In this document: positions 1 through 57,800 of the stretch, in pieces
Position numbering within the stretch: position 1 is the first letter of the stretch
Layout of the letters: each line of letters opens with the position of its first letter
Assembly: GCA_029204225.1 (NCBI GenBank)
Contig: CM055097.1
Location: 2,573,801-2,637,800 of the forward strand
Source of the DNA: Diphasiastrum complanatum
Lineage: Eukaryota; Streptophyta; Lycopodiopsida; Lycopodiales; Lycopodiaceae
Length of the DNA stretch: 64,000 nt
Direction: 5' to 3'
The notes under the pieces: model-generated
What the model saw: only the letters and a program-made list of their open reading frames with translations
The model's database searches: none
What the model was told of the DNA's origin: nothing
Translations under genes and position numbers: made by a program

Positions 1-3000
1 GCAACAATTGGTGATCATATTACAAAGGTCAAGGACCTATTGGATCAGCTTGCTTCAGTTGGAGAGAAAGTAAGTGACAGGAGTATTGTTCCCATAGTCT
101 TGAACAGCTTGTCATTCAACTATCAAGACTATGTGATGTCCCTTTCTGCTAGGGAGAAACTCCCAACCTTTGGGGAGTTATGTGGTCTTCTTTTACAGGA
201 GGAGATGAGAAGGAAGAATCTTTCTGAAAGGGAAGATAATCCAGAGCTTGCATTTGCTTCTAAGAAGAAGCAAAACTTTCAGAAGAAAGTCAAAGGCAAA
301 AAGAAGAACTCAAAGCAAAGCTTGGAGCAGCAGGTGTCCAAGTTACAGGTTGGAGAGGAGTCAAGCACCAATTCCTCATCCACACCCAAGAGGAAGGGCA
401 ACTGCAACTATTGTGGTAAGTATGGGCATTTTGCTTTTGAATGCAGGAAGAAGCAAAGTGATCAGAAGAAGGGAAAGAACCAGCAGAGTCACTTTGTTGA
501 CAAAGTTGCAGAGGAGGAGCAATCTGGTGTGCTTGAGCTATTCACCGCAGCCCTATCATCTGAATCCACATTTGGTGGATGGTACATTGATTCTGGAGCC
601 TCAAAGCACATGACACCTCATAGAGATTGGTTCAGCACCTATGAGGAGACAGAAGATAGCCAGCATGTTTGCCTTGGAGATAATTCTACACGTATGGTGA
701 GGGGCAAAGGTACAGTTGCAATACAGCTATCATCAGGTGAGGTGAAGGAAATTAAAAGTGTGTTGCATGTACCAGGGTTGGCTAAGAACTTGTTATCTGT
801 TGGTGCCATTACCAAACAGAACATGGTGGTAGAGTTTAATGATTCTAAATGTTTGGTAAAAGACAAAGAGAAGAACTTCAAAGTGGTAGCCAAGGGAATG
901 CAAGAAGGAGGTCTTTACAAGCTTTTCACAACCATTCCTAGCCAAGAGGCCTTGTCTGCAAGAGATACTAATCGGGACAAGCTTTGGCATGAGAGATATG
1001 GTCATTTGAGTTACAAAAGTTTGCAAGTTTTGAACAGGCACAAAATGGTAGTAGATCTTCCTAGCATTAAGTCTTCTTCAGATACATGTGAGGCTTGTGC
1101 ATTAGGGAAGCAACAGAGGAAAAAGTTTCCAAAGGAGAAAGCTACCAGGGCCAAGGGCATTCTTGAACTTGTGCATTCAGATTTATGTGGTCCCATGCAG
1201 GTCAAATCAGCAGGGGGGGCATACTATCTCATGACCTTCGTAGATGATTTCTCTCGGAAGGTATGGGTCTATTTTCTGAAACTGAAATCTGAAGCGTTCA
1301 AATACTTCAAACAGTGGAAAGCTACGGTGGAAAACCACACAGGAAAGAGGTTAAAGACTCTCAGGTCAGATAAGGGTGGTGAGTATATTTCTGATGAGTT
1401 CAAAGATCTTTGCAAAGCATGTGGGATAAAGAGACAGTTTACTGCTCCACATACACCGCAGCAAAACGGCATGGCTGAGCGGAAAAACAGGTCTATAGTT
1501 GAGTGTGCGAGGAGCATGCTCAAGGCAAAGGGGTTGCCAAATTCTTTTTGGGCAGAAGCGGTAGCAACTGCTGTTTTTCTATTGAATAGAAGTCCAACCA
1601 AAGCAGTTGAAGGAATCACGCCAGAAGAGGCATATAGTGGCAAGACGCCCAAAGTGGGCAGCCTTCGAGTATTTGGGTGTACAGCATATGCACATATACC
1701 AAAGGACTTGCGGAAGAAACTTGATGCAAAATCCGTAAAGTGTGTCTTTCTTGGGTATAGTGAAGGTGAGAAAGCTTATGTGCTATATGATCTCGAAAAC
1801 AGGAGGAAGATCCTAAGTCGAGATGTCATCTTTGATGAAGAGCATGCACCCAAGATACAGGAGCAGGAGAAGGAAGGAATTACTGAGTTCATACCCTTGA
1901 TTGATTCCACGGATGAGGATCCTAGTCAAGAGTCCTGTAAGCCTCAAGTGCAGGAGCAACAACAGGAAATCGAACCTACTAGTTCGAGACCTCTTTTTGG
2001 CCAAGTACCAGAAGCAGAAGTTGGGGACAAACGGAAGACTAAAACAGTACCATGGGATACGTGGTCACCATCCACATCACCTACTGCTAGGAAGAAGCTA
2101 CCTAGGTGGTATTGGGAAACAATCAAAGAAGGTCAAATGATTGAAGAAGGAGAGAGCAGTGAACAGGGTGTCAGAAGATCTCTTAGGTCTCATGAGAGAC
2201 AAGAGACTAACTTTGCTCTTATGTCCACTATTCTGAATGCAGATGAGCCACAATTCTTTCACGAAGCCGTGAGAGAAAAGGTATGGCAACATGCCATGCA
2301 GGAGGAGTACGACTCCATTGTCAAGAATGACACATGGGAGCTCACTACATTGCCAGAAGGGAAGCAACCAATAGGTTGCAAGTGGGTCTATAAGACCAAG
2401 TTTCATGCCAATGGAACAGTGGACAAGTACAAGGCAAGGTTGGTGGCGAAAGGCTATGCTCAGCAAGAGGGGCTAGACTATGATGAGACATTCGCACCTT
2501 TTGCTAAAATGACATCTATCAGGACCGTTTTGGCTATAGCCTCATATTTTGATTGGGATGTCCATCAAATGGATGTCAAGAGTGCCTTTCTTAATGGGCA
2601 CCTACAGGAGGAGGTTTACATGGAACAACCGCAGGGATTTGAAATAACAGGCAAAGAGAATCTGGTTTGCAGGCTTAGGAAAGCCTTGTATGGGCTCAAA
2701 CAGGCGCCAAGGGCTTGGTATAGCCGAATTGATGAGTACTTTGCAAGGCAAGGGTTTGAGAAGAGTAAGTCTGATTGCAATCTTTATGTCTTCAGGGAAG
2801 GAGAAGACTTTGTGGTTGTTGTGCTCTATGTGGATGATCTACTCATCACGGGAAGCAATAAGAAGCTTATTGCTTGTGTTAAGAAGAATCTTTCTAATGA
2901 GTTTGAAATGAAAGGTTTGGGTTTGCTACACTATTGCCTAGGAGTTGAAGTTTGGAAAGGAAAGCGTTGTCTTTTTATCTCACAGGCAAAGTATGCACAG

Positions 3001-3795
3001 AAATTATTGAAGAAGTTTAACATGCAAGAAAGCAAACCAATCAGCACACCCATGGATGCAAGCAACAAGCCATCAAAAGATGATGGTCCAGCATTTGCAG
3101 ATGAAACGCTCTATCGTCAGTTAGTGGGCAGCCTGATTTACCTTACTACCACCAGGCCAGATATTGCTTATGCGGTTGGAATCGCAAGTCAATACATGTG
3201 TAAGCCTACCGAAGCACATTGGAAGGCAGCCAAGCGGATCCTACGATATGTGAGAGGGACAGTGACTTATGGGATTGGATACACGGATGACGGGAACCTT
3301 CAGCTGGAAGGCTATTCAGATTCTGATTGGGCAGGTGATAGAGACGATCGGAGATCGACGACAGGCTATTGCTTCAGCCTAGGTTCAGGGGCTATATCGT
3401 GGTGCAGTAAGAAGCAGCCTACTATTGCTCTATCGTCTACCGAAGCTGAGTACAGGGCGACCACGAGGTCCGCCTGTGAAGCCATTTGGTTACGCCGTCT
3501 ACTTGAGGACATGCAGATTGCTCAAGTAAGACCTACATTGTTACATTGTGATAACCAAAGCTGCATTCAGCTTGCAAGGAATCCAGTCTATCATGCACGG
3601 ACAAAACATATAGAGGTGGACCAACATTTTATACGAGAGAAAGTGCACAGTGGGGAGATTGAGCTAGTTTATTGCGACACCAACGACCAGACAGCTGATA
3701 TTTTTACTAAACCACTTAGTAAAGATAAATTTGAAAAGTTCAGAACTTTGTTGGGTGTCAGTTTGAATAAAATTGCCATTAAGGGGGGGTGTTGA
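1..3795 (+). CDS. Ty1/copia gag-pol polyprotein, 5' end outside window
   Basis: Retrotransposon polyprotein, open in frame from the first base, so gag begins upstream of the window; the stop is at 3793-3795. Counting codons from base 1, the order is: gag tail; CCHC zinc knuckle CNYCGKYGHFAFEC (about 135-148); protease motif WYIDSGASKHMT (about 195); GAG-pre-integrase with LWHERYGHL; integrase catalytic D394, D457 and E493 (DD35E spacing); reverse transcriptase with LYVDDLLITG (about 941); RNase H with TEAEYRA and CDNQSC; and the terminal ADIFTKPL. Protease-INT-RT-RH order defines Ty1/copia. There are no stops or frameshifts over 1264 codons, which implies a young and possibly competent copy. 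It probably sits in an intron of the downstream RPN9-like gene, in the same orientation, but that is inferred. Confidence 0.96.
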   Translation, partial: ATIGDHITKVKDLLDQLASVGEKVSDRSIVPIVLNSLSFNYQDYVMSLSAREKLPTFGELCGLLLQEEMRRKNLSEREDNPELAFASKKKQNFQKKVKGKKKNSKQSLEQQVSKLQVGEESSTNSSSTPKRKGNCNYCGKYGHFAFECRKKQSDQKKGKNQQSHFVDKVAEEEQSGVLELFTAALSSESTFGGWYIDSGASKHMTPHRDWFSTYEETEDSQHVCLGDNSTRMVRGKGTVAIQLSSGEVKEIKSVLHVPGLAKNLLSVGAITKQNMVVEFNDSKCLVKDKEKNFKVVAKGMQEGGLYKLFTTIPSQEALSARDTNRDKLWHERYGHLSYKSLQVLNRHKMVVDLPSIKSSSDTCEACALGKQQRKKFPKEKATRAKGILELVHSDLCGPMQVKSAGGAYYLMTFVDDFSRKVWVYFLKLKSEAFKYFKQWKATVENHTGKRLKTLRSDKGGEYISDEFKDLCKACGIKRQFTAPHTPQQNGMAERKNRSIVECARSMLKAKGLPNSFWAEAVATAVFLLNRSPTKAVEGITPEEAYSGKTPKVGSLRVFGCTAYAHIPKDLRKKLDAKSVKCVFLGYSEGEKAYVLYDLENRRKILSRDVIFDEEHAPKIQEQEKEGITEFIPLIDSTDEDPSQESCKPQVQEQQQEIEPTSSRPLFGQVPEAEVGDKRKTKTVPWDTWSPSTSPTARKKLPRWYWETIKEGQMIEEGESSEQGVRRSLRSHERQETNFALMSTILNADEPQFFHEAVREKVWQHAMQEEYDSIVKNDTWELTTLPEGKQPIGCKWVYKTKFHANGTVDKYKARLVAKGYAQQEGLDYDETFAPFAKMTSIRTVLAIASYFDWDVHQMDVKSAFLNGHLQEEVYMEQPQGFEITGKENLVCRLRKALYGLKQAPRAWYSRIDEYFARQGFEKSKSDCNLYVFREGEDFVVVVLYVDDLLITGSNKKLIACVKKNLSNEFEMKGLGLLHYCLGVEVWKGKRCLFISQAKYAQKLLKKFNMQESKPISTPMDASNKPSKDDGPAFADETLYRQLVGSLIYLTTTRPDIAYAVGIASQYMCKPTEAHWKAAKRILRYVRGTVTYGIGYTDDGNLQLEGYSDSDWAGDRDDRRSTTGYCFSLGSGAISWCSKKQPTIALSSTEAEYRATTRSACEAIWLRRLLEDMQIAQVRPTLLHCDNQSCIQLARNPVYHARTKHIEVDQHFIREKVHSGEIELVYCDTNDQTADIFTKPLSKDKFEKFRTLLGVSLNKIAIKGGC

Positions 3796-18700: not shown

Positions 18701-19300
18701 AAAAGAACTGCAAAATCCAAGATCCTCAAGCTCCACCTCTTGGTAGATGTGATCCAAGCTCTTATACCACTTAAGAACCACCAAGTGAAGATCTATAGGA
18801 TTCCAATCACATGCAAACCAAAAGGACACATGTGGAGCATGAACCATCCAACCAATATGGAGAGGCTAGTCAATACCCTAACCAATCCACCCCCAAGCCA
18901 CAGTGAAAAACACAACAGAGGAGAGGAAGAACTGGCTCAAGAATCACAATTCACAATAGGAGGATGGGCAAGTTTCCACTAGACTTATTCTTCTCAAGAG
19001 AGAGAGAATATTTCCTTTAGGATCCCCATGCAACCTAAATTGAGCTATTGATCTCCTATTCTTGCATTAAAGTAGTCTTCACCATGCATGTGCCCCTATG
19101 TCCAATTATAGGTCTGGGCCCTTATATGATTATTAGTTATTTAATACGACCACATCCGGAATGACGTAACATAACTAATAACCACATACAACTGGAGTGA
19201 CAGACTATCCACGTCAGGAATAATTCTGATTCCCTTGTACAGGAGGACATGGACATAACACTATTGCTACCAAAGGTCTTTTATACTAAATCTCTACGTT
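12707..19300. other. Long intergenic stretch, no gene supported
   Basis: It holds the RPN9 3' UTR at its left end, then AT-rich DNA. Reading frames here are short, lack known motifs and have no exon-like borders. A small inverted repeat (ATTAGTTAT ... ATAACTAAT) lies at about 19126-19176. The piece at 18300-18980 looks like leader or LTR sequence of a decayed retroelement, but I could not show it. Confidence 0.5.
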
Positions 19301-19959
19301 TTATTTTAAAATCAACCAAATAGGTACTATTTAGACTTCTCGTGACCACATTTTTCTATATTTTTTTGTGTTCGCAGCTCGCATACAATCCTTTGTGGTC
19401 TTTTTGGTGCTATTCTAGTGTTTTTTACCAATTGGTGGAATCTAAGCTTTAGGTACTACCAATTTCACAAAATATGTACTATTTTTGTAATGTTTATATG
19501 TTTCTGAGACTTTAGACTACTAAAAATGTACTTTCTACTGCTCTCGTACTTTGTTGTTATAAGAAGCTTTTAAATAGCTCTTCGACCTGCTATGAGGGGG
19601 TTTGAAATCACTTATGTTGTACACAAAAAGACTTCTTGAATATAGATCAGTGGTAACAAAAGTAATTCTCCACTTTGAAGATGTTCACAATGACTTTAAT
19701 GCAGAAGGAATTTTTAAGAAGTTTTGAGTGAACCAACACTGTATTGAGCTGTAATACTTAGACATATTATTATGTTCTTTTAGTAAGCTATAAGGCTTGC
19801 ACATGTTCCATCTGCTGCAAAATTTAGGAATCGGATATTTGCAAAGCGAACCAATATGTTTGCCCCAACAATATGTGGGAATCGCTTTTATGTGCAAAGC
19901 CTCCTAATTCACAATACCATGCAAAAAAATGCTTGTTCAGGGACCGCAATAAATGTGTC

Positions 19960-20763
19960 ATTTGCACATTACCATTATGTCCCTCTGAGACATCAAGCTC
20001 CATGACATCTTATTCGTACAACACTGTCTACTACTACATGACGCTTGGTTGAAAGAGAACGGGTGTAATCTGAGGGGTCATTGGGTGTGGTCAGACGACG
20101 CAGCGTCCCAATTTAAAGCTCAAAGCCTTTCTTCTTCATGGCCAGGTATATTTGTTGGGGGTTCTCACTATCTCTTTATGATTACTCTGTATTTTTCAGG
20201 TTTGTTACTTCAGATAGTACCAAGATTGGTACTGAACTATAAGACTTTAACTACATAGTCCATCTCGTAGTACCAAACTACACTGTTCTGGAGTACCAGT
20301 TTTGGTACTATTTTCCTTATAGATATAGTACCAAACTGGAACTATACGGAATACCCGAATATAGTACCAAGTTGGTAGTAGACATGACACCAGGTTCGTA
20401 ACCACGGGTACTATTCGCAAGCACTATGTATCGCAACCAACATAAAGATAAAAAAATCTAACAATTTGTTATGTTTTTGGCCAGATCTTATCACTTGGTA
20501 GGTCTGCAAATGATGCATAGTTTTTCTCCCTCACGCCATGGAAAAGGCAAGCATGACGGAGCGGGCGCGGTCATCAAGAGAACTCTCACTCACAAGGAGT
20601 TGAAACCAGACGGTTGGCCCTTGAAATGTGCAGTAGATGTGGTCGCATATCTGAAAGAAAGATTTAGGCCAAAAGGAGAAGGTCACAACTGCAGTACAAG
20701 AAGAGTTTTCTGGCTGGTCAACAAGGATGTACCAATTTTGGTACTGGATGCAGCTGGTTAAGA
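19960..20763 (+). pseudogene. Transposase-like fragment (SDD..SQFK and HGKG.HDGAG motifs)
   Basis: Two coding blocks are visible. Block 1 (about 19990-20146) reads DILFVQHC, WLKENGCNL, then VWSDDAASQFKAQ. Block 2 (about 20485-20760) reads RHGKGKHDGAGAVIKR, then WPLKCAVDVVAYLKERF and RRVFWLVN. From memory this motif pair (SDG..SQFK followed by HGKG..DG.G...K) belongs to uncharacterised proteins encoded by mobile elements in plants and animals, and the acidic residues suggest an RNase H-like fold; neither point was checked. The blocks are separated by about 340 bp bounded by TGGCCAG on both sides, either an intron-like gap or an insertion, and the frame shifts across it. Confidence 0.6.
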
Positions 20764-20774
20764 TATATCTTAAC

Positions 20775-20915
20775 ATTTTTTTTGTATTCCAGCCTGAACA
20801 CCATCAGCCACTTATTGTCTGGCAGATCAATGTCTAGCAGGTCTTTTGCCAACTTGCCATCTAGGCTCAAGCCATACTCTTCATGAAGCTCCTCGGCTGA
20901 GTAGCAAAACTTTCA
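20775..20915 (-). pseudogene. Coding-like fragment on the opposite strand, unknown family
   Basis: Reverse-strand translation gives an uninterrupted, coding-like stretch including AEELHEEYGLSLDGKLAKD and DIDLPDNKWLMVF. I do not recognise the family. It lies just downstream of, and opposed to, the transposase-like block, inside the same repeat-bounded element. It could be a second element gene or a captured host exon. Confidence 0.4.
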
Positions 20916-21660
20916 CAAGATTGGATACAAGTCCATTTTGTTTTTTCCTACACAACACATTGTTAATTTTAACACAAACTGTTCACTGTAAATCCTCACA
21001 TAGAAGTACCAAATAACCAAATAAAGTACCAAAAGAAGCTACCATAAGCAATTTTTTTAAACTAAAAGCTATGTAGAAGAATCTGCTAAAGTACAAAAGC
21101 AGCTAAAGTTCCAAAAGTACTAAATTAAAGACCAAAATTTGCTGATTACTACCAAAGTACCAGCTAAATACAAAAGTACCAAAAGCATGAAAAGTACCAA
21201 AGTACCAAATTCACTATAAGTACCAAAATAACTACTACTTAAGTACCAAATGCAGCTAAAGAAATAATTAAGTACTAAATTAAGGACCAAAATTTGTTGA
21301 TTACTACCAAAGTACCAGCTAAGTACAAAAGTACCAAAAGCATAAAAAGTACCAAAGTACCAAAATCAATAAAAGTACCAAGATTAGTACTAAAGTACCA
21401 TATGCAGCTAAAGATATATTTAAGCACCAAAAGCAAATAAAGTACCTAGCTAAGTAAGCACCAAAATAAGGTAAAGTACCAAAGTTCAAATCTAAGTACC
21501 AAAAGCAGCAAAGTTCTACTTAAGTACCATAAGCAACTAAAGTACCACCCTAACCCTAAACCCTCAAAGAAATTACAGTACCAGGGTAAATAACTACCAA
21601 AATCAAAAGCAGCTGATTACTACTAGAACTACCAATTCAAGTACCAAATCTCCTTGTAGG

Positions 21661-22509
21661 AGTATGTTTTCAAAGCTGTGAAAGGCTATGAATGGGCGGC
21701 CTGGTAGCCCGATTCTGCGGTAGGAAGGTCGCGACTGGCCGTGGAGGAGGAAGGCAGCTAGTGCGATTAATGAGGAGCTGCCATAGCCCGTGAAGGAGTG
21801 AGAAAACTCCATCGCAGGTAGAGAGAGAAGGAGGAGAGGTCGCGGGAGCTGTCGCGCGCTCAGTTGTGATCACCAGCTAGCGACCCGAAGTGTTCAGTAC
21901 TTCGAGGGCCTTTAATCAACGCACAAATGTGTTGACAGCCGTCTGATCTTGATTCATACAGATCAACGATGGTCATTTCACAATGGGTGGGTCGTTGGAT
22001 CCGTTGGATTGAAGTGAAAGAGTCTGAAGGGGTCTGAAGTGCAAAGTGCATTGCAACTTCATTAAAAATCTTCAAACTGAAAAAATTGTTGGGTCCCAAG
22101 TCTTTGAAGGGTGAAGTTTCTTCACATTGAAGAAACAGTTCAAAAACCCTAATTGCCCTTATTTTCACCTCCTTTAGCCTATTTTGACCAAACGAAAGGC
22201 TATAGCCTCCAAACGAAGGGCACCCTGACTGTACTTGCAAGTACGGTACACCAAAACAGAGTGATTGCCGTGGAGAAAGTGTTCAAAGTGCGCCAGAAGT
22301 GATTTCACCATTCTACTGGGCAGGAAGCTGGGAGTTGGTGACGTGAAGCAATTTGGAAAATGACGCCAGTTTGGCTTTCAATTTGGCGAAAGAGCGGCGG
22401 GTGGCCTTGTAAGCTAAAAATTGCAGGTCATTATTATCAATTTCTGACATCACGGTTGGCTCTAGCATACACTTTATAGCCTACAGGGGAAGTTTTAAGC
22501 AGTTCGGAA
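21661..22509. other. GC-richer stretch ahead of the copia gag, no gene seen
   Basis: It includes a purine-rich GGAGGAGG/GAGAGAGAAGG segment (about 21740-21840) and simple inverted motifs. It is probably the right flank of the decayed DNA transposon and the leader of the next copia element. No tRNA-iMet-type primer-binding site was found before the gag start at 22510. Confidence 0.4.
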
Positions 22510-23937
22510 ATGGCAAACATCAATGAGGCAATTTTGGGCGATGCAAGCAAACTTGATGGGGCTTCTAACTACAACATCTGGAAATTCAAAATGAAGAGCA
22601 TTTTGATGGAAAAAGAGTTGTGGGAAATCGTGGCAGGTATTGAAGTCCGACCAAATACCACTCTAGGTGACATAAGGGCCTTTGATAAAAAGGCACAGAG
22701 AGCATTATCCTTGATCAATCTTTCAGTGAAAGACCATGTCATCACTCGCATAAGTGATGCCACGACGGCTAGGGGAGCTTGGGAAGCTCTTAGAATGCAA
22801 TTTCAAACTTGCAATCCAGCTCGAGCCATGTTCTTGAAGTCGAGATTGAACACAGTAAGGATGGAAGAAAATGAATCAATGGGATCCTTCTTCACCAGGA
22901 TAAAGGAGTTGAGAGATCAACTTGTGGTAATTGGAAAACCAATCAGAGATATTGAATTGGTACATACCACAATGAGCGATGTCTCGGAAGGGCTACAGAT
23001 GTTTGTGAGCGGCATTGCTTCAAGGGAGAGGTTGCCTACTTTTGAAGACTTCCATGGAATCATGTTGCAAGAAGAGCAGCGTCACGAAGTGGTGAAGTCA
23101 AGACAAACTCCACAGGAGGATCAAGCCTTGCTTGCTAAAGGCAAGTAGAAAGGATGGAAAAGGATTCCTAAGAAATCCAAGGATGATGGTGACGAAGGAA
23201 AATCGTCTTCAAAAGGGAAAAAGAAGACGAAAGGAAAATGTTACTATTGCCACAAACCAGGCCATTGGGCACGCGAGTGTTATAAGAAGAAAGCAGACAT
23301 AAAAGTGAGAAAAGTGACTCAACAAGGAAACATTGCCGAAGATGATGGAGAAGATGACGGGACAAGTGTTTTCTCATCGGCATTGGCATCCCAAGTTGAT
23401 GATGGTGCCAGATGGTTCATAGATTCAGGCGCCACAAGGCATATGACCGGAAAACATGATTGGTTTGAAAAATTCTCACCAATCCATGATGGGGATAAGG
23501 TCACTCAAGCCAATGGAGAGGAATGCCAGATACAAGGTGTGGGCAATGCACCTGTGCAATTTCCTGATGGCAAAATTAAAAATATCCCTAATGTACTTTA
23601 TGTTCCCGGACTGAAAAAAAGTTTGCTTTCTGTTGGTGTAATGGCAAATCAACATCTTAAAGTTGAATTTGTCAAGGATGGATGCCTTATGAAGGATACG
23701 AACCATAACCACAAAGTGGTGGCAAAGGGTTATAGAGATAGTAACTGTGGCCTTTATAAATTGGATGCTGCAAAACCAGGTGAATATGGTTTGGGCATCT
23801 CAACAACATCTCAATCCGAGTTATGGCACAAAAGACTTGGTCATTTGAACTATGGGAGCTTGAGATTGATGGAGAAGCTGAAAGTAATATACTACAAAAC
23901 AAATTCAACCAAGCACAAAAAAATATTAGATATATAA
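22510..23937 (+). pseudogene. Truncated Ty1/copia gag-protease with one in-frame stop
   Basis: Starts MANINEAILGDASKLDG, a typical copia gag, with NYNIWKFKMKSIL. The frame stays open to a TAG at 23146-23148, then continues in the same frame through a CCHC knuckle (CYYCHKPGHWAREC), protease motif (WFIDSGATRHMT) and GAG-pre-integrase (LWHKRLGHLNYGS). Homology stops near 23885, and an unrelated AT-rich tail supplies the final stop. Integrase, RT and RNase H are absent. The lone amber codon just before the knuckle is most simply a mutation; a readthrough gag stop is the alternative. Confidence 0.88.
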
Positions 23938-24718
23938 TTTAATACATGTACAATTTCTCTCATATAGATGTATTAGGGAAATAAGTCAATTTCTTCAAAT
24001 TATTTCCTTGATAAAGTCACATTTAAAACTAACAAAGTTGCTTTTTTGCTATAAATCTAGTTGAATGTGATCTTAGTAGTGACTTCTTCACAAAAACTTG
24101 AAATTAGACCAATAATCCAAAAACTCAATATTGCAATTACACGTAGTTTCTTCACAAAAGCTAGATGGCTAGTTCTTTTGCACTAACAGATTGAAATTGT
24201 TGTACATTTCTCAATAATGTTTTAGAATTAGATTATTGAAACATGGCTTCCACGCGAAAAGATGACTTGAAATCCATGCACACAATTCCCGCAAGTTGAG
24301 AGAGCTTCAAGGCTACCAGCCTACCTCGACAAGGTACTTCAACAGGCTATGTGCTCCACAACCAATAGGCAACCAACGACAGCCTATCTTCTTGAAGAGA
24401 TGCAGAATTATAAAGTTTCAAAAGGGAATTCAAATTAGTCACTCTTGGGTAGGGTTCCTCTTTCCATAATTGATACTATAGTAACAACAATTTGCTTATT
24501 TAAATGACATGCCTTCTTAGTTGACTGAAATCAGCATTGTGACACACATTGTGACTTTGACTATTAGAAGTTTGCATTTGGGTTTGCTTCATGCATTGTT
24601 GGTTAATCAAGATATTTTTAAACCAAGACCTAGTGAGAAAATCTTCCATAAAGCACTAGTGTTCGACAAGCTTCACTTTGGGCTTCTGTCCCACCTTACA
24701 TGATTGTCGACATATCTT
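23938..24718. other. AT-rich intergenic DNA, no gene seen
   Basis: This follows the break in the copia remnant. No coding or RNA signal is visible before the SINE. Confidence 0.5.
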
Positions 24719-24730
24719 CACATTGTAATG

Positions 24731-24811
24731 CTTCTTGGTTTCCAAGGGGAGGCTCGAACCTGGGACCAAAGGGATGCCAAGCTAACCAGTTGAGCCAACC
24801 CCGTTGGGGTA
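24731..24811 (-). mobile_element. tRNA-derived short SINE, copy 1
   Basis: On the reverse strand, a pol III A-box-like TGGCTCAACTGGTTAGC is followed by a B box GGTTCGAGCC, as in a tRNA. The body is only about 81 bp and is flanked by a 12-bp direct repeat CACATTGTAATG at 24719-24730 and 24812-24823. The same body occurs at 56918 with different flanks, which shows retroposition. The tRNA-like fold is incomplete, so it is not called a tRNA gene. Confidence 0.85.
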
Positions 24812-24823
24812 CACATTGTAATG

Positions 24824-25185
24824 ACAAAATGTAACCTTCAAGCATTTAAGATTCAAGCTTGCTATTCAAACATAAGCTTTTTGGAAAAAATTTAGAACCT
24901 GCTTGTGTCACTCTTCCACATACAAACAAAGAGAAAGATTACCAAATAGTTGTTTAAATTAGAAAATTTCCATTTGACCAGTCATAAAAGTGAGATATCT
25001 GCTGAACGATGCTATGCACATATCCACAAATACAATGTACAATATTCATATATAATAGAAAAGAAGAATCCAGGTAACAGCACGATCACGACTTTTAGTC
25101 TTTATCAGGACACAGTCTTTTACCATTTGGCATATTAGAGCGCATTAGCAGGCAGTGGATCACGGGATAATTAGCTACAGGGCTC
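24824..25185. other. Upstream region of the dioxygenase gene
   Basis: AT-rich; no clear TATA box could be singled out. It ends at the 44-bp duplication that surrounds the start codon. Confidence 0.4.
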
Positions 25186-25273
25186 TGGGGCAATATATTA
25201 TAAAAATTTGGGAAGAATTGATCACTCAATGGGGCAATATATTATGAAAATTGGGGAAGAATTGATCACTCAA
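25186..25273 (+). repeat. 44-bp tandem duplication at the dioxygenase start codon
   Basis: Two 44-bp units (25186-25229 and 25230-25273) differ at two positions. The ATG at 25229-25231 spans the unit junction, and the A-to-G change in unit 2 gives another in-frame ATG at 25244. Confidence 0.9.
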
Positions 25274-27255
25274 GATGCACACACCAACACTTCGAAGCCA
25301 AATTTGATGGAGAGCAGCATCACCCAGGTTGCTGTAGATGAGCACCCCACAACAGCAGAAGCAGAAGCAGAAGCAGAAGAAGAAGAAAAACACCATCGTT
25401 GTATTGGGGATGAGATCGAGATTCCAGTGATAGACCTGGAGGGTCTGGATGGTGAAGGGCGCGCTCAATTAGTGAAGTCCATAGGCGAAGCGTGTGAGGA
25501 CTGGGGGTTTTTCCAGGTATTTGTTTGTTGCTTGAGCTATTAGTAGCTTCTTCATTCTGCAGATTCCTATCTGATGATGGGCTGCTTCCAATTTTGAAAA
25601 ATAGTGGATGTATGGGTGGATGATGGCTGATCAAATGACGCGATCTTGAAAAAAAATCCAACGATCTGATCAATTGGCCTCAAGTATCGGGTTACCCCTA
25701 AGTACATCAGGAGTCGTATAAATGCTAGTGGGGGAGATGCATCTAGAGATCTCAGCAACCAGCTGTGACCATTATATGTGTAGTAGCAGGCAAATATTCA
25801 GCTGCGGAAAATTTTATTTGTTTTTTCTCTTGACTGAGAAACATTTTGATTACCGATTGATTGCAGGTGATCAATCACGGAATACCAACATCCGTCACGC
25901 AAAGTATGATGCAAGTTTGCCAGGAATTTTTCGACATTCCCACGGAAGAAAACGTGAAACAATACCCAGATGATAACCTGAAGCCTGTGCGATTTGGAAC
26001 CAGCCGGACTCTCTCAAAGGATACGCTTCTTGAATGGAGGGATTACTTAAGATGCCCGTGTCGCCCTCTGTCAGATTTCATTGATCTGTGGCCTGCCAAG
26101 CCGTCTACTTTCCGGTAGTAGTCCTATTAGCTTGACTACATACCAATGTTGATAGTTGTCTGCTTTTGCTGCATTCAGATTGCAAAATTATCCCTTTACT
26201 TTTCCGAAAAACATCCTATGGTTCAGATATTTATTTCAGCACGCAAAAATGAAAGTTTTCGAAGGTAGATTGTGATGACTAGAATAGGTAAATAACATTT
26301 GTAAGACCAATTTGGGGAAATCTTACATGTTTGTTTGTTGACTGAAGGCAATTCTACAGTTATGTCCTTATTGCCCTTGTACAATTCACCTCCGTAATGC
26401 AAGCTCATGATTCTCGTATGTCATGTCAGAGAAGTTACGATGGAATATTCCAAGGAGCTTGCAGTGCTGGCCAAGCGACTGTGCTCTGCTATATCAGAAA
26501 GTCTGGGTGTAGAGTCTGAATGTCTCCATGAACTCATTGGCAAGCACCAGCAAATCATAATGCCAACTTACTATCCTCCTTGTCCCAATCCAGAACTCAC
26601 GATTGGCCTATGTGCTCATACTGATCCAGGCGGCATCACAATTCTCCTGCAAGATGAAGTTGAGGGATTGGAAGTGTTCAAGAAAGGACGATGGATTGGA
26701 GTCAAACCCTTGCCTGATGTTTTTGTCGTTAATTTGGCTGATCAGATTCAGGTATTGCCAAACAACAAAGCAAAATTTTTAAAATAATAGCAACTCAAGA
26801 AGGGAAATTATGATGCACAGGAATGCCTGTGTTCATCCAGCAGCCGAAGCTTTTATTCAGGATTCCTAGCAACCCACTCATTCAACCATTGAAAGCCCAT
26901 GCTCCAGATAGTTTGAATGTACGCCAAGTGCAAATTTTTCAAGAGTTCTGAAGGGTATTAATGGCAGCTTTGTAGGGTCTGATTCTGCATCTACTTGGCA
27001 CTGTTTGTGCAGATCCTCACAAATGGAAGATATAAAGGTGCGGAGCATCGAGCAATCGTGAATGCAGAGAGGGCACGGATTTCAATCCCCACGTTTTTCC
27101 ACCCTTTAGATGATGCAAAGATTGCTCCAATTCCAGAGCTTCTTGGTGGGCAGCTGCCCATGTACAGAGACAGCATATTCAGAGATTACCTCCGAGAATT
27201 TTTCACAAACAAATCCACTGGGAAGGGTACAGTGGATTCTCTGAAACTAGATTGA
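25229..27255 (+). CDS. 2-oxoglutarate/Fe(II)-dependent dioxygenase, four exons
   Basis: Soluble oxygenase of the plant DOXC type (the group with flavonoid, hormone and DMR6-like enzymes), which couples 2-oxoglutarate decarboxylation to substrate oxidation. Exons: 25229-25516, 25867-26114, 26430-26751 and 27013-27255, with GT-AG introns and phases 0, 2 and 0, giving 366 residues. The DIOX_N part has IEIPVIDLEGLDG and DWGFFQ/VINHGIP. The core has YYPPCPNPELTIGL, HTDPGG (H242, D244), NLADQIQ, and EHRAIVN with H298 and RIS (R308, S310): the full iron triad and the 2-oxoglutarate-binding R-x-S. A downstream ATG at 25307 would give 340 residues, nearer the usual length. The leader also contains a Glu/Ala repeat. 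The substrate cannot be told from sequence. Confidence 0.93.
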
Positions 27256-40031: not shown

Positions 40032-40388
40032 TTATCTCATATGGATGATCATCTGGATTTGAGGATCTGTATGCTGGTCCATTGGGTACCGTTGTGTCTT
40101 TTTTATGTTGGGTATGAGTTTTTGGTGTTTTTGGAGTTTTTGGATTTTTGGTATTTTTTGGATTTTTTTAGGGTGTTGAAAGAAGTGAAGGAGAGACTCA
40201 ATATGAAAAGGGATTTCTAATGGTATGGGTGTTGGGTCTCGAAGGTGTTGGGAAGATGGTGGTTCAGTCAAAATGGCAATCAGAGGTCTCGTTCGAAAGT
40301 TATGTGTGTTGGTCTGGTAAAAAAATGACCTAATTTCCTCGGTCGAGATCTTATCGAATCCTGTGGTGGAGATCTTATCCAAGACCAT
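40032..40388 (-). pseudogene. N-terminal extension of the gypsy gag reading frame
   Basis: A 118-residue reverse-strand frame begins within the minisatellite (LDKISTTGFDKIS) and continues into Pro/Lys/Gln-rich sequence upstream of the gag core. It is in a place where a gag leader would be expected, but low complexity makes its status doubtful. Confidence 0.4.
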
Positions 40389-41085
40389 CGATCAAGATGC
40401 TAACGGAAGCCGTTGGTCGAGATATGACATGAACGCGTTGGTTGAGATCTGATGCGAGACGTCAATCGAGATCTGATGCGAACGCGTCGGTCGAGATCAA
40501 ATCAAAAACCCGTCGGTTGAGATCTGAACGAAAACTTGTCGGTCGAGATCTGATCGAAAACCCGTCGGTCGAGATCTGATCGAAAATCCATCGGTTGAGA
40601 TTTGAACGAAAACCCATTGGTCGAGATCTGATTGGAAACCTGTCGGTAGAGATCTGATCGGAAATCCATCGGTCGAGATCTGAATGGAAACCCGTCGGTC
40701 AAGATCTAATCAGAAACCCATCAGTCATGATCTGAACAAAAATACGTCAGTCAAGATCTGAACGAAAACCCATCGGTCGAGATTTGACGTGAACGCATCG
40801 GTCGAGATCTGACGCGAACGCGTCGGTCGAGATCTTACGCGAATGCGTCGGTCGAGATCTTAGAGAAAATGGTCGGTTGAGATTTGACGTAGGCCGTCCG
40901 TTAAGATTTGATGCAGGCCGTCGGTTGAGATTTGACGCAGGCTGTCCGTTGAAATTTAATATAGGTCGTCGGTTGAGATTTATCGCAGGCCGTCGGTTGA
41001 GATTTAACGCAGGCCATCGGTTGAGATTTCACACAGGCCGTCGGTTGAGATTTCATGCAGGCCGTCGGTTGAGATTTCAGAGGAG
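40336..41085. repeat. Minisatellite, about 30 units of 24-26 bp
   Basis: The unit core is GTCGGTCGAGATCTGA plus a variable 8-10 bp tail. Three zones are visible: a mixed left part, a middle zone with GATCTGATCGAAAACCC-type tails, and a right zone (from about 40875) with GTCGGTTGAGATTT plus ACGCAGGCC tails and a 24-bp period. Both strands remain open over parts of the array, encoding simple repeats. Confidence 0.93.
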
Positions 41086-47606: not shown

Positions 47607-47758
47607 CTTGCATGTGACAGGGACAGGGATGAGGGATGGTGTGCTCCAACTGGGTCCCTCAAGGCCTTGTTCCAATATTTCTTGCATGTGATAGGGACAG
47701 GGATGAGGGATGGTGTGCTCCAACTGGGTCCCTCATGGCCTAGTTCCAATATTTCTTG
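47607..47758. repeat. 74-bp tandem duplication
   Basis: CTTGCATGTGACAGGGACAG at 47607 recurs at 47681 (period 74). The copies differ at only a few positions. Confidence 0.9.
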
Positions 47759-48812: not shown

Positions 48813-51800
48813 ATGGACAACAGGAAGCCGGATGAATTAGAGGTAGTTTGTGATACTGTCAGATCTAACTCTATCCCTCCAACTGGTAGTCGGACATGGA
48901 AGATGTGCAGAGGAGCAGCACTTTTAAGGAATATTTTTACCGGCTGTTTTAATTTCAGCCAAAACGAGGCTTCAGTACATTGTGTTGATAAAGGGGGATT
49001 GAAGCAGGAAACGGGTGTTCAAATGCCTCGTCGGCGAACTTACTACTACAGTGTTTTTGCCGCCCGCCTTGCTCTTATGGTATCACGCTGAAATCATCTA
49101 CATGCTATGTTTTTTCTGGTGTGGCCGATGGCTCTGTTCTTTTTCTCGACCTAAATCTTTGCAACATTTGGTTTTCAAGTTATAATCGAGATATTTTTTG
49201 TTTCTGAACGTGCTACTGTTGCTGAGTATGTTATAGTTGTTTCTTAACTGCGTTCCATTGTAATTCCTTTTGCATTCCTTTTTGTTAGCATTATTTTATA
49301 GCTATCTTGTTTCGTTGTGTCTGTTCCTGCGTACGCGTGGAAGTAAACAAGGTTTCCAGTTCTTTTCTGGCAATTTGACTTAAAAACGTGTCTAATTACA
49401 AAAGTTGTAGAAACAATGAGATATAAAGTATAATAACGTTGAGAGTGTAACCCTTTTGGGACTATCAAGGTTGGGGGGATTTTTAGTCTGGGCAGGGTGG
49501 ATGGTCTGAGCGGGATGGGGTTTCTGCCACCTAATGTGTAAATGCAAGTTTATTTTTGAGTTGACAGAATTTTATGTGGACAGCCAATGAGTGGGTGGCA
49601 TATAGCACATGCACATTCCACTCATTGGTTATGTGCTATGTGGCACCCACTCATTGGCTGTTCACATGAGAGTTATGGTGAAATTTGTCAATGGTTGAAA
49701 AACACATGAAAATTTTGTTTTTGAAATATCACCAAAATATAAAGAGAAAACGAGCACTTGGTGTTAGGTTATCGGAAGTTTCCAATGTTGCAGCAGATTG
49801 CGATCTGCTGCAACATCATTCAGGAACGTTAGTGATCCGCGAACTGGATCGCAATTTATTTATTTATTTTTATTAGTATTTTTTGTGGAAAAAAGACTAA
49901 TGGCCAATTTTTTTTTTTTGATAGTTTAGTTAGTATTAAAGGAACTCGGAAATCATCAATGAATGCATAAGAAGAACAACGTATCGATAAATTGGAAAGA
50001 GGCAAAAATAACATTGCATAGAGGCTAGAGCCATATTGATCCGGTTAATTATAGATAGAGATATTGTTGGCACTGTATAATGTACTCATATTTTGTTGAG
50101 TACGTTGATTTGAGTCACGGTTTTGTCACAAGCTCTGAGATGGGTGCTTATGCTTCATAATTGTTGTCGGTTTGCTGTCATCCAGTACGGTTCCATGTGA
50201 TTTTATTTCACATAATACAGAAATAGAGATATTTGATAGAGAGGCATTGCGCCGGCTATTGATACCAAAATCCAGACTCTAAAGCCCAAGTGAGACAACC
50301 ACCAAGAAAAGTGACAAAAACTCTCGTAGGAGCTTGCTAGTTATGTAGAGTAAGATTCGAAGCATTTTTGGGTCCTTTTTTTCCAACAGAACTAGAATAA
50401 GTGCACTTTCTGTAGGGGCTTTTGGTTTCTGATTTAGTGGTGTCTAGTGCTTGTGCTATCAAGGCCATACCAAGTGGGAAAGTCAAAATTAGGAGTTGAA
50501 GGGTTGCCTTGAAGTGGCTACATACCCTAGTTGTTGGAAGTTTTTTATGTTCTGATTCCTTTCAAGTTAAGCTTCTGTTGGAGCAAATATTTTAGGATGG
50601 CTAGTCTTGGAGAGAGTTTGTTGGGTGAATCAAGAGACTTAATGGCGCTAACTACAGGATGTGGAAGTTCAAGATAGCTAACGTCTTGATGGATAAGAAT
50701 TGTTGGGAGATAGTTATGGGTAGAGAGCTTGTACTGACATCTGAACCTGAATTGAAGCGCTACATTAGCAGGAGACAGAAGGCACATAGGGTGATCAATC
50801 TTTTTGTCAAAGACAACATTATTCCTCACATTTGAATGCAAGGGATGCAATGGAAGCTTGGGGTATTCCTAAGTCTATGTGTGAGACAGGGGATTCAGCT
50901 AGGCTTGCAAAATAGGTTGCTGCATTCTTTGAAGATGGAGGCAGGTGCAACAATCAATGATAACTGATTCCTGGTAGTTCTCCTATATCATTGTATCCAT
51001 ATAGGATGAGTACTACTGAAGAGGATGAGGTGTATAGGCAACTGCAAAATTACCTTAAGATGGGCCATGATAGGCCTAGTAAATCTCCCTGGGGGGCACT
51101 TGTGCTCCTTGTTGATAAAAAAGATGGAGGTACTCGTCTTTGTGTGGACTTTAAAAAGTTGAATAAATTAACGATTAAAAACTGTTATCCTTTGCCGCGA
51201 ATGGATGAACTGGTTGATCGATTGCATGGTGCAAAGTACTTCACCAAAATCGATTTGAGATCAGGGTATCATCAGATTCTCATAAAGACTGAGGATATTG
51301 AAAAAACCGGGTTTAGAACTAGGTACGGCCATTATGAGTTTCTGGTTTTACCTTTTGGCTTGACAAATGCTCCAGCGACTTTCCAGCAGATGATGAACGA
51401 TCTTCTTCGTCCATATCTGAGAAAGTTCGTAATAGTCTACTTAGATGATATTCTCATCTATAGTAAGATCTCGGAGGAGCATGAGGAGCATCTCAGGACT
51501 GTCTTAAAGTTACTTAGACAGGAAAAGCTTTTTGCCAAGGAGTCCAAATGTGTGTTCTTCCAGAAAAGGTTGTTATATCTTGGTCACATTAGTTCGGACC
51601 ATGGGTTGGAAATTGACCCAAATAAAGTCCAACAAGTAAGTCCTTTTTGCGCTTTACGGGGTTTTTTCATAGATTCATCTTGAACTATGCATTAATTGCA
51701 TTGGCCTTGACGAATGTCCTCAGAGGGGCTAAAAGAGTTAGTCGACACAGTAAGTTCAGTACTCCAGTTACTTGGACTGAAGAGTTGAATTAGAGTTTTG

Positions 51801-54800
51801 AGAACCTTAAATACTGTGTAACTACAGCGCCTATTTTACACATAGTGGATCCTAACAAGCCGTATGTACTTGAAACGGATGCCAGTGACTATGCTATAGG
51901 CGCAGTCCTATATCAGGATGGTAGGCCGGTGGCTTTTGAAAGCAAGAAGTTGGACCCTGCTCAAAGGCGGTATTCCACCTATGACAAGGAACTTTTCACT
52001 GTCATTAATGCCCTGAAAGTTTGGAGACATTATTTGTATGGCTCCCAGTTTACTATAGTTACTGACCATCAAGCGTTAAAGTATATTAAAGATGCGGTCG
52101 ACCTTAGGGGTCGTAAGGCCAGATGTTCAGAGATGCTCCAAGAATTTCATTATGACATTGAGTACCGGAAGGGTACTTCTAATAGTGTCGCAGATGCCTT
52201 AAGCCGGATTGGAGAGGTTAATCAGTTAAGCTTTTCTGAGATCCAATCTGAGTTGTATCTGTCCTTAAGAGATTTGTGTAAGACCGATAGGTACTTCGGT
52301 CGTATTTGGCTAGACGTCCTGGCAGGTTCTTCTAGATCTAGTGATGAGCTTGGAATGCAGGATTCCAAGATTTCTCCTCAGGACAAGATACAAAGAGACT
52401 ATTCCATTAGGAATGGGTTGCTTTTCCGGAATGGAAAGGTTTGTGTGCCAGAAAATGATGATATAAGGGCCCAAATCCTGCATGAATGTCATGACAGCCC
52501 GTGTGCAGGGCACCCTGGTGCTCAAAGGACACTTGACTTAGTAAAAAGGAACTTTTACTGGCCAAATTTTAAGAGTCAGGTGGAGGCATATGTTCGCAAG
52601 TATGCGCAATGCCAAGTTAACAAAGCTGAAAGACTTAAGGCAGCTGGTTTGTTAATGCCCTTGGAAATTCCCGAAAGAAAGTGGGAAAGCATTTCCATTG
52701 ACTTTGTGGTTGGGCTACCTTGGAAGGGGAAGCAAAATGATGCCATTTGGGTAATAGTTGACAGTTTAAGTAAAATGGCGCAGTTCATACCAACCAAGCA
52801 AACTGTCAAAGCTTCTGAACTTGCACAACTTTTCGTGGAAAAGTTGTTCAGGTTGTTTGGTTTGCCGAATGACATTGTTAGTGATCGAGATCCAAAGTTC
52901 ACTGGCAAATTCTGGCAGGCGGTCTTTGAGAAATTAGAGACCACCCTAAGTTTGGGGTCATCAGATCATCCTGAATCGGATGGTCACAGACAGAGAGGAA
53001 AAACCAGTCTATGGAAGATATGCTTCGGGCATATGTTTCCAGAAGACAGTTAGATTGGGAAAGGTACCTTCCAATGATTGAGTTTGCGTATAATAGCGCA
53101 AAGCACTCAACGACGGGTTTTAGTCCATTTTCTCTGATGTATGGTTTCCAGCCTAGGGCTCCCATTTTAGTGGGCCTTAAAAGCCTCAAGGTTAAAGCAG
53201 CAGTAGATTTCCTGCATGATATGCAAGAAATGTTGCTTGTTGCTCGCGAAAACGTAAAAACGGCTCAAGATAGAGCCCAATTTTACGCTAATCAAAAGTG
53301 ACAACCTAGGGTCTATGAGGAGGGGGCTTGGGTATATCTTAGAATTCCAAAAGATTCTAAGGTACTAAGGACTGGAAAATGTCCTAAGTTATCACTTCGT
53401 TACGCAGGACCATTCCGTATAGTAAAGAAACTCCATCGGAATGCGTACCAGCTGGAATTTCCTCAAGGCGTTAAGGTTTCCTTCCTTAGATAAGAAATTT
53501 TTTAAGGAAGAGGGAATGTTAGGGACCCAACTCCCTTGGGTCCCAAACCCAGACTTGAGACTGGACGATGACTGGGCCTGTAGACTTGACCGGTGACTCG
53601 TGAACCTGCATCGTTGCCACGTGTCATGATCCAGGAGTGCACATGGCTTGGAGTCTCTCTCCTTGGAGGTATACAAGGGTAGGAGGACTCATTTGCCATC
53701 CATTCTGTCTACCTAGGAGGAGGTGGATGGAGAGCGTGTGCACGGCCAGGATGTATTGCTAGCGTGAGGCAGGAGATGGCTGAGAGCCTAGGCGGTGGTA
53801 TGGGACGCCGTCTGGGATGGAGGTCGGATCCAACTTGAAACGGTCACAGGCCAGGGCACGGTGGGTGGACTCGGATTAGGTCCTATGGCGGGGTGGAACG
53901 TGAATTGTTCAGTCTCTTGTGGTTAACTGGCACCTGGAGGTTTGCAGTAAGTAAGATTGTAACAAGTATGATGTTGCGAGTTCCTTAGGCGTCAAAGACA
54001 ACCATCGTCTGATCAGAAACTGAGGAGTCGTAGACGTCCGTGTTCTGATCAGAGTGAGTAAACAAGCGCGATCAAACAGCGATAGAGTGCATTCAATCAC
54101 AACAAGCATTTATCTACGTTATACACAAATAAAAAGCGTATTGCTGCTATATTACACTGAAACACAACAATGGCAGTCAAAACAGAATGACGACATAATT
54201 GGGAGGCTCAAATAATACGTCTCATGGACGGAGCGTCTCTTGTGATCTGTCCTGGGATGATCTATTCATAGATTGCATCCATCTATTAATTACATTCAAT
54301 GTTTGTCACCTAATTAGGCAAGCCGTTGTACTTGGAAGTATATGGCTTTTGTGAGGAACGTTGACGCGGACGAGGACGTCGCAAATTCTCTCACTTCGCA
54401 AATTTCGAGAAGTGGCTGGGAATGTTCCTCGTTAAAAAATAGACGACCTTCGGCATTTTCTCTCTTTTCGGGATTTTGCGAAAAAGCCGAAGGTGCCCTT
54501 AAAAAGTTGAAGGTGCCGTAAAAAAGGCAAAGATGTCTTTAACAGTTTAACTCTCTCGCACTTTTCGGGGAAATGCGAAGGTGTCTTTTAACAGTCTAAC
54601 CCTTAAAAATAGATGACCTTCTGGAATTTGCTCTCTTTGCATTTTTCGGGAAAATGAGCCGAAGGTGTTGAAAATAGTTAAACTTTTGAACTGTGGACAA
54701 ATTGACTTCTTCAAAATAATTGAATGGAAGAAGTCGAAGGCAAGTGTCATAGTTTTCGGGAAAGTTCAAAAAATGCGAATTGTGCGACACTGTGTGTATT

Positions 54801-57800
54801 TCTGTAGACTGTTGAAAAAGCAATGTAAATCTGCAGACTTGTTCTAAATGCAAGTTTTGTGGAAGTCCTTGAAGATGGACAAGTCTTCAATGACTTCAAG
54901 TTACTAAACTTAACATCTGAACTTGAAATTATGATGGGATTGGTTACCCTTTGCTGGAGATCAGCCGAAAGTCCGTTGTAGATGTCCTTCAAATAAATTG
55001 GCTGTCTAAGTTATGATTCCAAGGAGACAACTGTGGGCTTAATTTCCAACAAGACTCAATCTAGTAGTGACTCTCTAGAGTATTTGACGGGGAAATGTGA
55101 GCATGATGTTTATTTTTGAAAGATTTGGAGAGCAATCAAGTCAAGGGACTTTACAGATGCCCAAACGTGCATGTACAGTTGAGGGAAAGCTACTTCACAC
55201 TAGTTTTTGAGAGTAAAATATCAAAGAGTACATATGATGTTGAGGGTAAGATGTCCAAAATCACATTAGATGATGTTGATGAAAGGGTCTCCTTAATATT
55301 GAAGAATACATTTCTTGTTGGTGGTGAGACGTCCAAAAGTACATGTGGTGGTGTTGAAGACAAGGCGTCCAAAAGTATGCCTGAGAAAGGTGTCGAGATA
55401 CGACGACAAGTAAAGTCCTCCAAGGAAACACCATTGAGGATGAGTACTTCCTCTACAAAGGTAGAGCATGTGACTTGGGAGTTGATGACCAAAGGTACAT
55501 GCCACCAACTTCTTTAGGAGTGTGGTTTAAGTGCTTGACATCTGGGAATCGAAAAGACTTATGTGCTTTTGAAGTGGTAGTTCTCCTAGCTTCACATGAA
55601 AAAGGACGTCCAAATCGTATGTGATCATAAGTGCCAAGTAAATAAGGCAACGCTGGATTGTTCAAGACACAAAGGGGCCACAATTCTATGAGGGTGATCG
55701 TTGACTAATTGACCAGAATGGCTCATTTTTTTCCAACTAAGAAAACTATGGAAGCTTTCAATTTAGCAAGGTTATTTGTGGAGGATCTTTTTAAGCTTTA
55801 GGGGCTGCCAGTTGGTATTTTTAGTGATCGGGACAACAAGTCTGAGTCACTTTTGGAGGGCTTTATTTCATAGGTTGGATGCCAAGTCGAGCATGAGAGA
55901 GCATCCTCAATCGGGATGGCCAAATAGAGAATGTCAACAAAGTCTTCAAAAATATGCTAAGATAACATTGTAGTAAGAAAAAAACCAATTGGGAAGGTTC
56001 AAGTTTGGAGTTTGCATATAGTGGTGCCAAGAATTCCCTTATTGCATATAGCTCGTGGATGTTGATGTATGGTTTTCAGCCAACGTTTCTAGAAATAGTA
56101 GGGTTATAGAAACAAAGGTATATGCATCAAGGGACTTTCTTGAAGACATGAACTGAATGGTAGAATATGTTGGAGAAAGCATAAAGACGAGTTATGATAG
56201 AGCTAATGATTTAAGCATAGATGAAAAGTTGAGTTTGAGGTTAGAGACAAAGTATTTTTGAAGGTGCCTGAACCTTCAGAGACCCTATAGATTGGTAAAT
56301 GTGAAAAGTTGTCTTTGAGATATTGTGATCTGTATGTGATATTGAGAAATGGTGAGATTGCTTATGAGGTAGCTATATTAGAAGGTTGTAAAGCACATCC
56401 CATCTTTCATGTAAGCCGTCTCATATAGCCACCAGTGCTTTTGGATGAACTAGAGGGAATAGTTGATATGAGATAGAGGCATATGCATCATACTTTGTAT
56501 TACAAGTATTTGGTTAGGTTGAAGGATAATGAGCGATAAAAGTAGTAACCTCGGACTTCCAAAGTATGTTTTCTAATAATGTCTCCAAAATTCTCAAGAG
56601 GAAAGCGTTATGGCTCTTGTGTTGGCTTTGCACTTGTAAACTTTTGCATTCATTAGCAAACTTTTGCATATGTTCTGTGACTTTGCTTTTTTGCTCGTGT
56701 GTGTAAATTTTGCTCCTGTTTATTTTGAGTAGTGCTGATTGCTTAGATTGATCAAAAATCTGCTTTAGAAGCAAAATTATTGGTGTGTAGCAATAGCTAA
56801 GGAAGAAAGCTGATTGCTATTATTAGTATCTATCTTGGGATGTGTTTCTAAGTACTAAAAACAAGTCCTATTCTAGTAGTAGTACACCCACCTACATGCA
56901 TGACAAATAAAAAAATGCTTCTTGGTTTCCAAGGGGAGGCTCGAACCTGAGACCAAAGAAACTTTGGATGTCAAGCTAACCAACTGAGCCAACCCCGTTG
57001 GGCTTACAAATAAAAAAATGGCTTACTATAAATAGAAATGCCCCCTATAATAGCATGCAGGCATGGCCAAACTAACATTAAGGGGTACAAAATAAACATT
57101 AATGCCTAACACTCCCCTTTATTGTTTACTTTGTTATCTATTACTCCTAGAAGTTCTTTAAACTTTTGAAACTTTTCTTCAAGAAGTTCATGAGCATACT
57201 TAGATTGAGAAATAAATAGCCCCTGTGCTACTCTCCATACCTCAATCCCAAGAAAATATTGTAGTGAACCAAGATCTTTCATGTCGAACTCTGATGAGAG
57301 ATCTTTCTTGATATCCTATGATCTGATCCTGTGATAACAAGGTCATCCACATACATCACTACAATTAGAATATGACCATCCCTGATCAAAATATAAAGTG
57401 TAGGCTCCGAACTACTCTGAAAGCCAAGTTCCTCAAATTATGTGTCAATCCTCGTGTACCACGCCCTGGGTGCCTGCTTAAGTCCATATAGTGCTTGTCC
57501 AACTTGCAAACCTTGTCTTCATCTCCAGCTACCATGTATCCCTCTGGCTCTTCCATGTAGACTTCCTCCTCTAGAAATCCATTCAGGAATGCACTCTTGA
57601 CATCTATTTGTTGAATATCCCATCCAAACTGAGTTGCCAGTGATAAGACTGTCCTCATAGTAGTTGACTTAGCAACTGGTGCAAAAGTTTCTTCATAGTC
57701 AATCCCTTCTTGTTGAGCATAAACTTTTGCCACCAATCTTGCCTTATGTTTATCTATAGAACCATTTGATTTGTATTTACTTCTATAGACCCACTTGTAT

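Follow-up and report, generated by a model that had tools for sequence, protein, structure and literature searches.

A candidate transposase-like gene copy and an array of GTACCA repeats in a retrotransposon-rich region of Diphasiastrum complanatum

CACTA transposons, among the closest described systems for the locus reported here, have CACTA...TAGTG terminal inverted repeats and a 3-bp target duplication, as given in the part of PMC4158355 cited here. For the soybean CACTA element Tgmt*, the portion of PMC2613891 on which we draw gives four subterminal repeats for the left side (159 bp) and 24 for the right side (732 bp), with the capacity to form palindromes. In a wider frame, Repbase comprises 20 DDD/E superfamilies according to the excerpt of PMC9587614 used for this comparison.

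In this study, we analyzed a stretch of 64,000 nucleotides of D. complanatum (assembly GCA_029204225.1, contig CM055097.1, positions 2,573,801 to 2,637,800), termed the window at its full length, in which the original prediction had placed a DNA transposon remnant with transposase-like motifs and dense subterminal repeats. The window has 39% G+C. Pfam matches identified Copia-type open reading frames (ORFs) at 1-3792, 22510-23145, and 23149-23850, and Gypsy-type domain content in the ORFs 50964-51680 and 51794-53050. The Copia frame at 1-3792 enters from the left edge of the window and covers gag to reverse transcriptase (Pfam) in 1264 stop-free codons, and at 57652-58032 a 162-bp stretch, reverse-transcriptase-like by eye, repeats at 219-bp spacing with 95% identity. 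A match to DIOX_N lies within 25175-25540 (Pfam, E 2.7e-9) and one to 2OG-FeII_Oxy within 26398-26784 (Pfam, E 2.7e-24); with these two domains, 25175-26784 represents exons of a plant-type 2OG-Fe(II) dioxygenase gene, the first open frame of which contains a 44-bp duplication (25186-25273). Tandem repeats are located at 40339-41077, where adjoining arrays of 26-bp (TCGGTCGAGATCTGAT...) and 24-bp (GTCGGTTGAGATTTGACG...) units that look alike cover ~740 bp in total, and at 47607-47758, where a 74-bp unit forms a tandem pair with 96% identity. A 354-aa open frame at 60910-61971 gave a sub-threshold match to dCache_1 (E 2.2e-6, 27.8 bits vs. a cut-off of 45) and perhaps encodes a sensor domain.

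Both peptide blocks named in the original prediction were confirmed on the plus strand, SDDAASQFK at 20091-20117 in the ORF 19989-20258 and HGKGKHDGAG at 20537-20566 in the ORF 20462-20761, and the frames of the two ORFs differ. Using the ORF list and translations, coding-like block 1 (DIKLHDILFVQHCLLLHDAWLKENGCNLRGHWVWSDDAASQFK...) was delimited to 19989-20146 and coding-like block 2 (...RHGKGKHDGAGAVIKRTLTHKELKPDGWPLKCAVDVVAYLKERF...RRVFWLVNKD) to 20485-20725. They are separated by an intron-like gap of ~340 bp (20147-20484, plus strand), which opens with a donor-like CAG/GTATAT at 20143 and contains 5 GTACC and 3 GGTAC as well as palindromic double sites at 20217-20232 and 20293-20308. In a codon test, neither block 1 nor block 2 was significant, with 21-23% and 7-11% of random segments scoring equally high, respectively, and none of the blocks of the locus reached the 5% level. 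Single or joined, the plus-strand blocks matched no Pfam model, including the transposase models, the joined blocks matched no NCBIfam model, and PDB sequences contained no relative, with a single chance match at E 0.59. Also, block 2 had no relative among the phage records, and pattern scans of genome contigs for the plus-strand blocks gave no match. In viral contigs, an HGKG-pattern match (L001) was rejected as chance, consisting of a 13-residue match around the selecting pattern and two low-scoring bits and, moreover, sitting opposite another long ORF; none of the four further matches of the pattern scan was confirmed. Words from the block peptides did not occur in the literature searched, and the motif words were absent among the matches listed in the literature searches. 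A comparison with transposase HMMs and predicted structures had been proposed as a check. The former was run and gave no Pfam transposase match for the blocks, of which only protein fragments survive. For the latter, models were built from single sequences without an alignment; with a mean pLDDT of 36.7 and 57.4 and a pTM of 0.22 and 0.34, these were poor and uninformative on an RNase H fold with its three acidic residues.

The block order SDG-x-x-SQFK followed by HGKG-x-x-DG-x-G-x-x-x-KR is characteristic of what we take to be an unnamed transposase-like protein family of plants and animals; in these HGKG-motif proteins, the same two blocks would occur in the same order as in the plus-strand gene. 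An animal-like sequence of this family gave only one chance-level match in Pfam (E 0.01). A similar order of a D-bearing and then an H-bearing block is presumably also present in DUF7869 (PF25273), with the layout (S/A)DN-x-x-GQNKN then GHTKF-x-PD. A DUF7869-like peptide matched PF25273 at 8.9e-10 (Pfam), the window blocks did not match this profile, and DUF7869 was absent among the matches listed in the literature search. Since no searched library contained a relative, the transposase-like reading rests on presumed family motifs. On this basis, the coding blocks are most likely the decayed remains of a transposase-like gene, placed in a region rich in transposons. The plus-strand gene is apparently a frame-broken and truncated copy, the frame break resting mostly on the presumed family motifs, and its family assignment is a lead and not a result.

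To the right of the blocks, the plus strand carries an A-rich array of AAGTACCAAA-type repeats (20951-21645) with 26 AGTAC and 3 GTACT, which is T-rich on the minus strand. This array is far beyond chance, and its orientation is one-sided: in 20950-21660, GTACCA was found 20 times in forward orientation and TGGTAC not once, compared to a forward mean of 0.48 and at most 3 in 300 shuffles. For GTACCAAA, the counts were 13 forward and 0 reverse, with a forward mean of 0.09 and at most 2 in 300 shuffles. All 15 forward copies of GTACCAAA in the whole window lie within 20270-21641, and two of the four reverse copies are located at 20301 and 20737. An A precedes GTACCA in all 20 array copies and AA in 19 of them. 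The 'dozens' of copies predicted for the right side are reached with a relaxed motif, the position weight matrix (PWM) giving 30 forward sites of at least 8 bits in 20950-21660. Part of the array stems from the tandem duplication of 155 bp at about 21086-21431, and a telomere-like short run, CCCTAACCCTAAACCCT, is present within the GTACC array at 21548-21564. The matches to the repeat pattern were unrelated, one being a run of 15-bp units AAGTACCAAAACCAG (L002) and the other three TGGTAC 12 bp apart (L003). Literature searched for the repeat letters contained no title about transposons among the matches listed.

The array is not the only place where such sites occur. The palindromic double site GTACCANNNTTGGTAC was found exactly at 20217, 20293, and 20729, the last one being GTACCAATTTTGGTAC at the end of block 2 (20729-20744), and with one mismatch at 21375 in the array. 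Counting both strands, there are eight matches, compared to a shuffle mean of 0.05, and none of 100 shuffles reached eight. The site is thus present in the gap between the blocks, at the end of block 2, and in the array, and therefore ties the array and the blocks together. AGTAC or GTACT cores number 43 across four AT-rich segments totaling 1419 bp (19280-19600, 20147-20484, 20726-20790, and 20951-21645), compared to a single core in four coding-like blocks totaling 725 bp; for this count, the segments were picked after seeing the sequence, and the two segment classes differ in base composition. The AT-rich stretch 19600-19840, which was excluded from the 1419-bp sum, has no GTAC core, so that a filling of non-coding parts by cores is not a general rule. 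The repeats thus seem to characterize several non-coding stretches of the locus and not element ends alone, and binding of the GTAC sites by a transposase is possible as one of several readings.

Our best explanation, to which we give about even credence, is that a multi-exon transposase-like gene is present here as a truncated and apparently frame-broken copy, the non-coding parts of which carry GTAC sites. This copy, sitting among LTR retrotransposons, would belong to an unnamed eukaryotic gene family marked by SD(G/D)-x-x-SQFK ... HGKG-x-x-DG-x-G-x-x-x-KR, and its peptides would derive from a transposase of the DDE/D type (RNase H fold). The array would be part of the same element as the plus-strand blocks. 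GTACCA half-sites would lie in non-coding segments of the gene, some of them alone and some in inverted pairs, with tandem duplication having enlarged the array on the right. While the element was alive, the half-sites may have been bound by a dimeric element-encoded protein. Should the family be confirmed, the locus would open an apparently widespread but unnamed transposase-like group to study at the sequence level, and the common palindromic site would be a candidate binding site of that group; the present evidence is one decayed copy within a retrotransposon-rich region.

Gene-like minus-strand DNA lies on both sides of the array, so that the array may be an intron, not an element end. On one side, a coding-like minus-strand block, KFCYSAEELHEEYGLSLDGKLAKDLLDIDLPDNKWLMVFRL (20790-20912), is preceded by an acceptor-like TTGTGTAG, and there is an in-frame stop directly before the block. 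The codon score of 20790-20950 peaks in a minus frame, the best of six, and was equaled by 6.5-10% of 1500 random segments. On the other side, a possible first exon (21646-21812, minus strand) begins with an ATG at 21812 (MEFSHSFTGYGSSSLIALAAF...) behind a CT-rich leader; here the codon test gave no support, with 25-62% of random segments scoring equally high. The adjacent stretch 21861-22227 (minus strand) is a possible promoter (TTAGGGTTT at 22152-22144) or the right end of a mobile element (GCCYTTCGTTTGG at 22221-22209 and 22200-22188). Searches of Pfam with both minus-strand blocks gave only one chance-level match, and block KFCYSAEELHEEYGLSLDGKLAKDLLDIDLPDNKWLMVFRL matched no PDB sequence.

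Plant introns are T-rich. If the minus-strand gene is real, the array is its intron, and the opposed core orientation follows the two transcription directions. It is possible, albeit on the whole improbable, that the array is a minisatellite-like expansion in an intron of such a separate gene (promoter-like region 22227-21861, possible first exon 21812-21646, intron about 21645-20951, exon 20912-20790), that it binds nothing, and that the plus-strand fragment simply ends against it. The leader with the ATG before the array, the acceptor-like site and block behind it, its T-richness on the minus strand, the 155-bp duplication, and the minus frame of the best codon score are in line with this explanation. 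A private intron expansion does not, however, explain the palindrome that the array shares with the gap of the plus-strand gene and with the end of block 2; furthermore, the codon test backs the exon 20912-20790 weakly and the first exon not at all, the in-frame stop interrupts the reading directly before the block, and Pfam and PDB sequences gave no match.

Other evidence concerns the ends and the left side of the locus. As suggested with the original prediction, we searched for terminal inverted repeats combined with a target duplication. The best end pair scored 14.5, within the range of the 18 control regions (13 to 22) kept after two of 20 drawn were dropped for overlapping the locus. Of the proposed DNA transposon remnant, a likely transposase-like remnant stands; inverted ends or a target duplication above the controls were not obtained. 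A CACTA end, CACTATTGCTACC at 19259, preceded by TAA, was rejected: it has no good inverted partner, the seven TAGTG in 20600-26000 all lack a following TAA, and with 55 CACTA in the window, one nearby is expected. Also rejected was a right-hand terminus at ~22227, where the minus strand reads CAGGGTGCCCTTCGTTTGG and has two copies of GCCYTTCGTTTGG at a distance of 21 bp; this terminus has no left counterpart. The locus has no recognizable ends: this is a truncated copy, or else one with ends that have decayed or are located further out.

On the left side, a T-rich non-coding stretch (19280-19600, plus strand; T 42%, GC 32%) is a weak counterpart of the array with five GTACT and no AGTAC. As many were found in 0.05% of 2000 shuffles, and the GTACT count is the highest among 637 windows of 300 bp. 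At a threshold of 5 bits, the array-derived PWM gave three reverse and no forward sites on this side, a result equaled in 1.2% of the other windows. A single site was obtained between 6 and 8 bits (8 to 18%), and the site at 8 bits is a reverse one (8% of other 350-bp windows). Neither TTTGGTAC nor TGGTAC is present in 19250-19600. Aligned with the reverse complement of the array, the left side reached a best local score of 33 and ranked within the first four of 627 window segments, but equally high scores were obtained for 7% of 200 left-side shuffles; much of the similarity is explained by the T-richness common to both, and the left side was rejected as a reverse complement of the array. The opposed orientation predicted for the left side thus survives in weak form, for the five GTACT cores and not for TTTGGTAC or TGGTAC. 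Likewise, repeats on two sides hold for the array on the right, and the repeats are also located between the coding blocks (5 GTACC, 3 GGTAC).

These data bear on the prediction that the repeats are subterminal transposase-binding sites. As binding sites they are possible, and a poorly described family is a plausible candidate for their origin; as subterminal repeats they lack ends, occur also in the intron-like gap, and form an array that may be intronic. That they belong to one mobile element in a CACTA-like arrangement, with ends just outside 19320 and 21660, appears rather doubtful to us. The asymmetric counts (5 GTACT in 321 bp on the left, 26 AGTAC in 695 bp on the right) resemble those of Tgmt* in the cited portion of PMC2613891, core orientation is opposite on the two sides, and the three weak reverse PWM sites on the left, equaled by 1.2% of other windows, fit as well. 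No terminal inverted repeat or target duplication rose above the controls, however, the CACTA at 19259 is without a right-hand TAGTG partner, sites are present also between the coding blocks, and the full right motif is not matched by the left motifs.

An HGKG-family host gene or pseudogene that has degenerated, is not mobile, and has nothing to do with the repeats would agree with the missing ends and with the lack of a second block copy in the 64-kb window (DNA self-comparison, repeats of at least 60 bp; one window is uninformative on copy number), but is unlikely in view of the apparently frame-broken and truncated gene and of the palindromic sites common to gene and array. Highly speculative, finally, is a DDE-type transposon without a Pfam model that has two convergent genes, the introns of which, and not the ends, would hold palindromic GTACCA-NNN-TTGGTAC sites of an element-encoded dimeric binder; if so, one protein would both mark the element's DNA and regulate how the two genes are transcribed or spliced.

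Compared with Kolobok and the other DDD/E superfamilies in the excerpt of PMC9587614, the transposase-like gene copy preferred here would share the general class, i.e. that of eukaryotic cut-and-paste transposases, and differs from them in lacking inverted ends, a target duplication, and a Pfam transposase match. The locus was assigned to none of the 20 superfamilies. Its distinction from CACTA elements lies in the lack of a CACTA/TAGTG end pair and of a CACTA profile, and in repeats that are also present between the coding blocks. No paired CACTA/TAGTG ends were found at the locus, and the missing Pfam match to a CACTA transposase profile is a weak negative as only protein fragments survive. 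What may correspond to subterminal repeats of CACTA style is a strong right array and a weak left side, with 5 GTACT in 321 bp on the left and 26 AGTAC plus 3 GTACT in 695 bp on the right next to the figures for Tgmt*. As in the part of PMC2613891 describing this element, the repeats are short, dense, mostly on one side, and partly palindrome-forming. In CACTA elements, such repeats are bound by a separate element-encoded protein. On its ends the locus fails as a member of this group, and the protein test is too weak for a decision, but CACTA elements are a fair working analogy for it.
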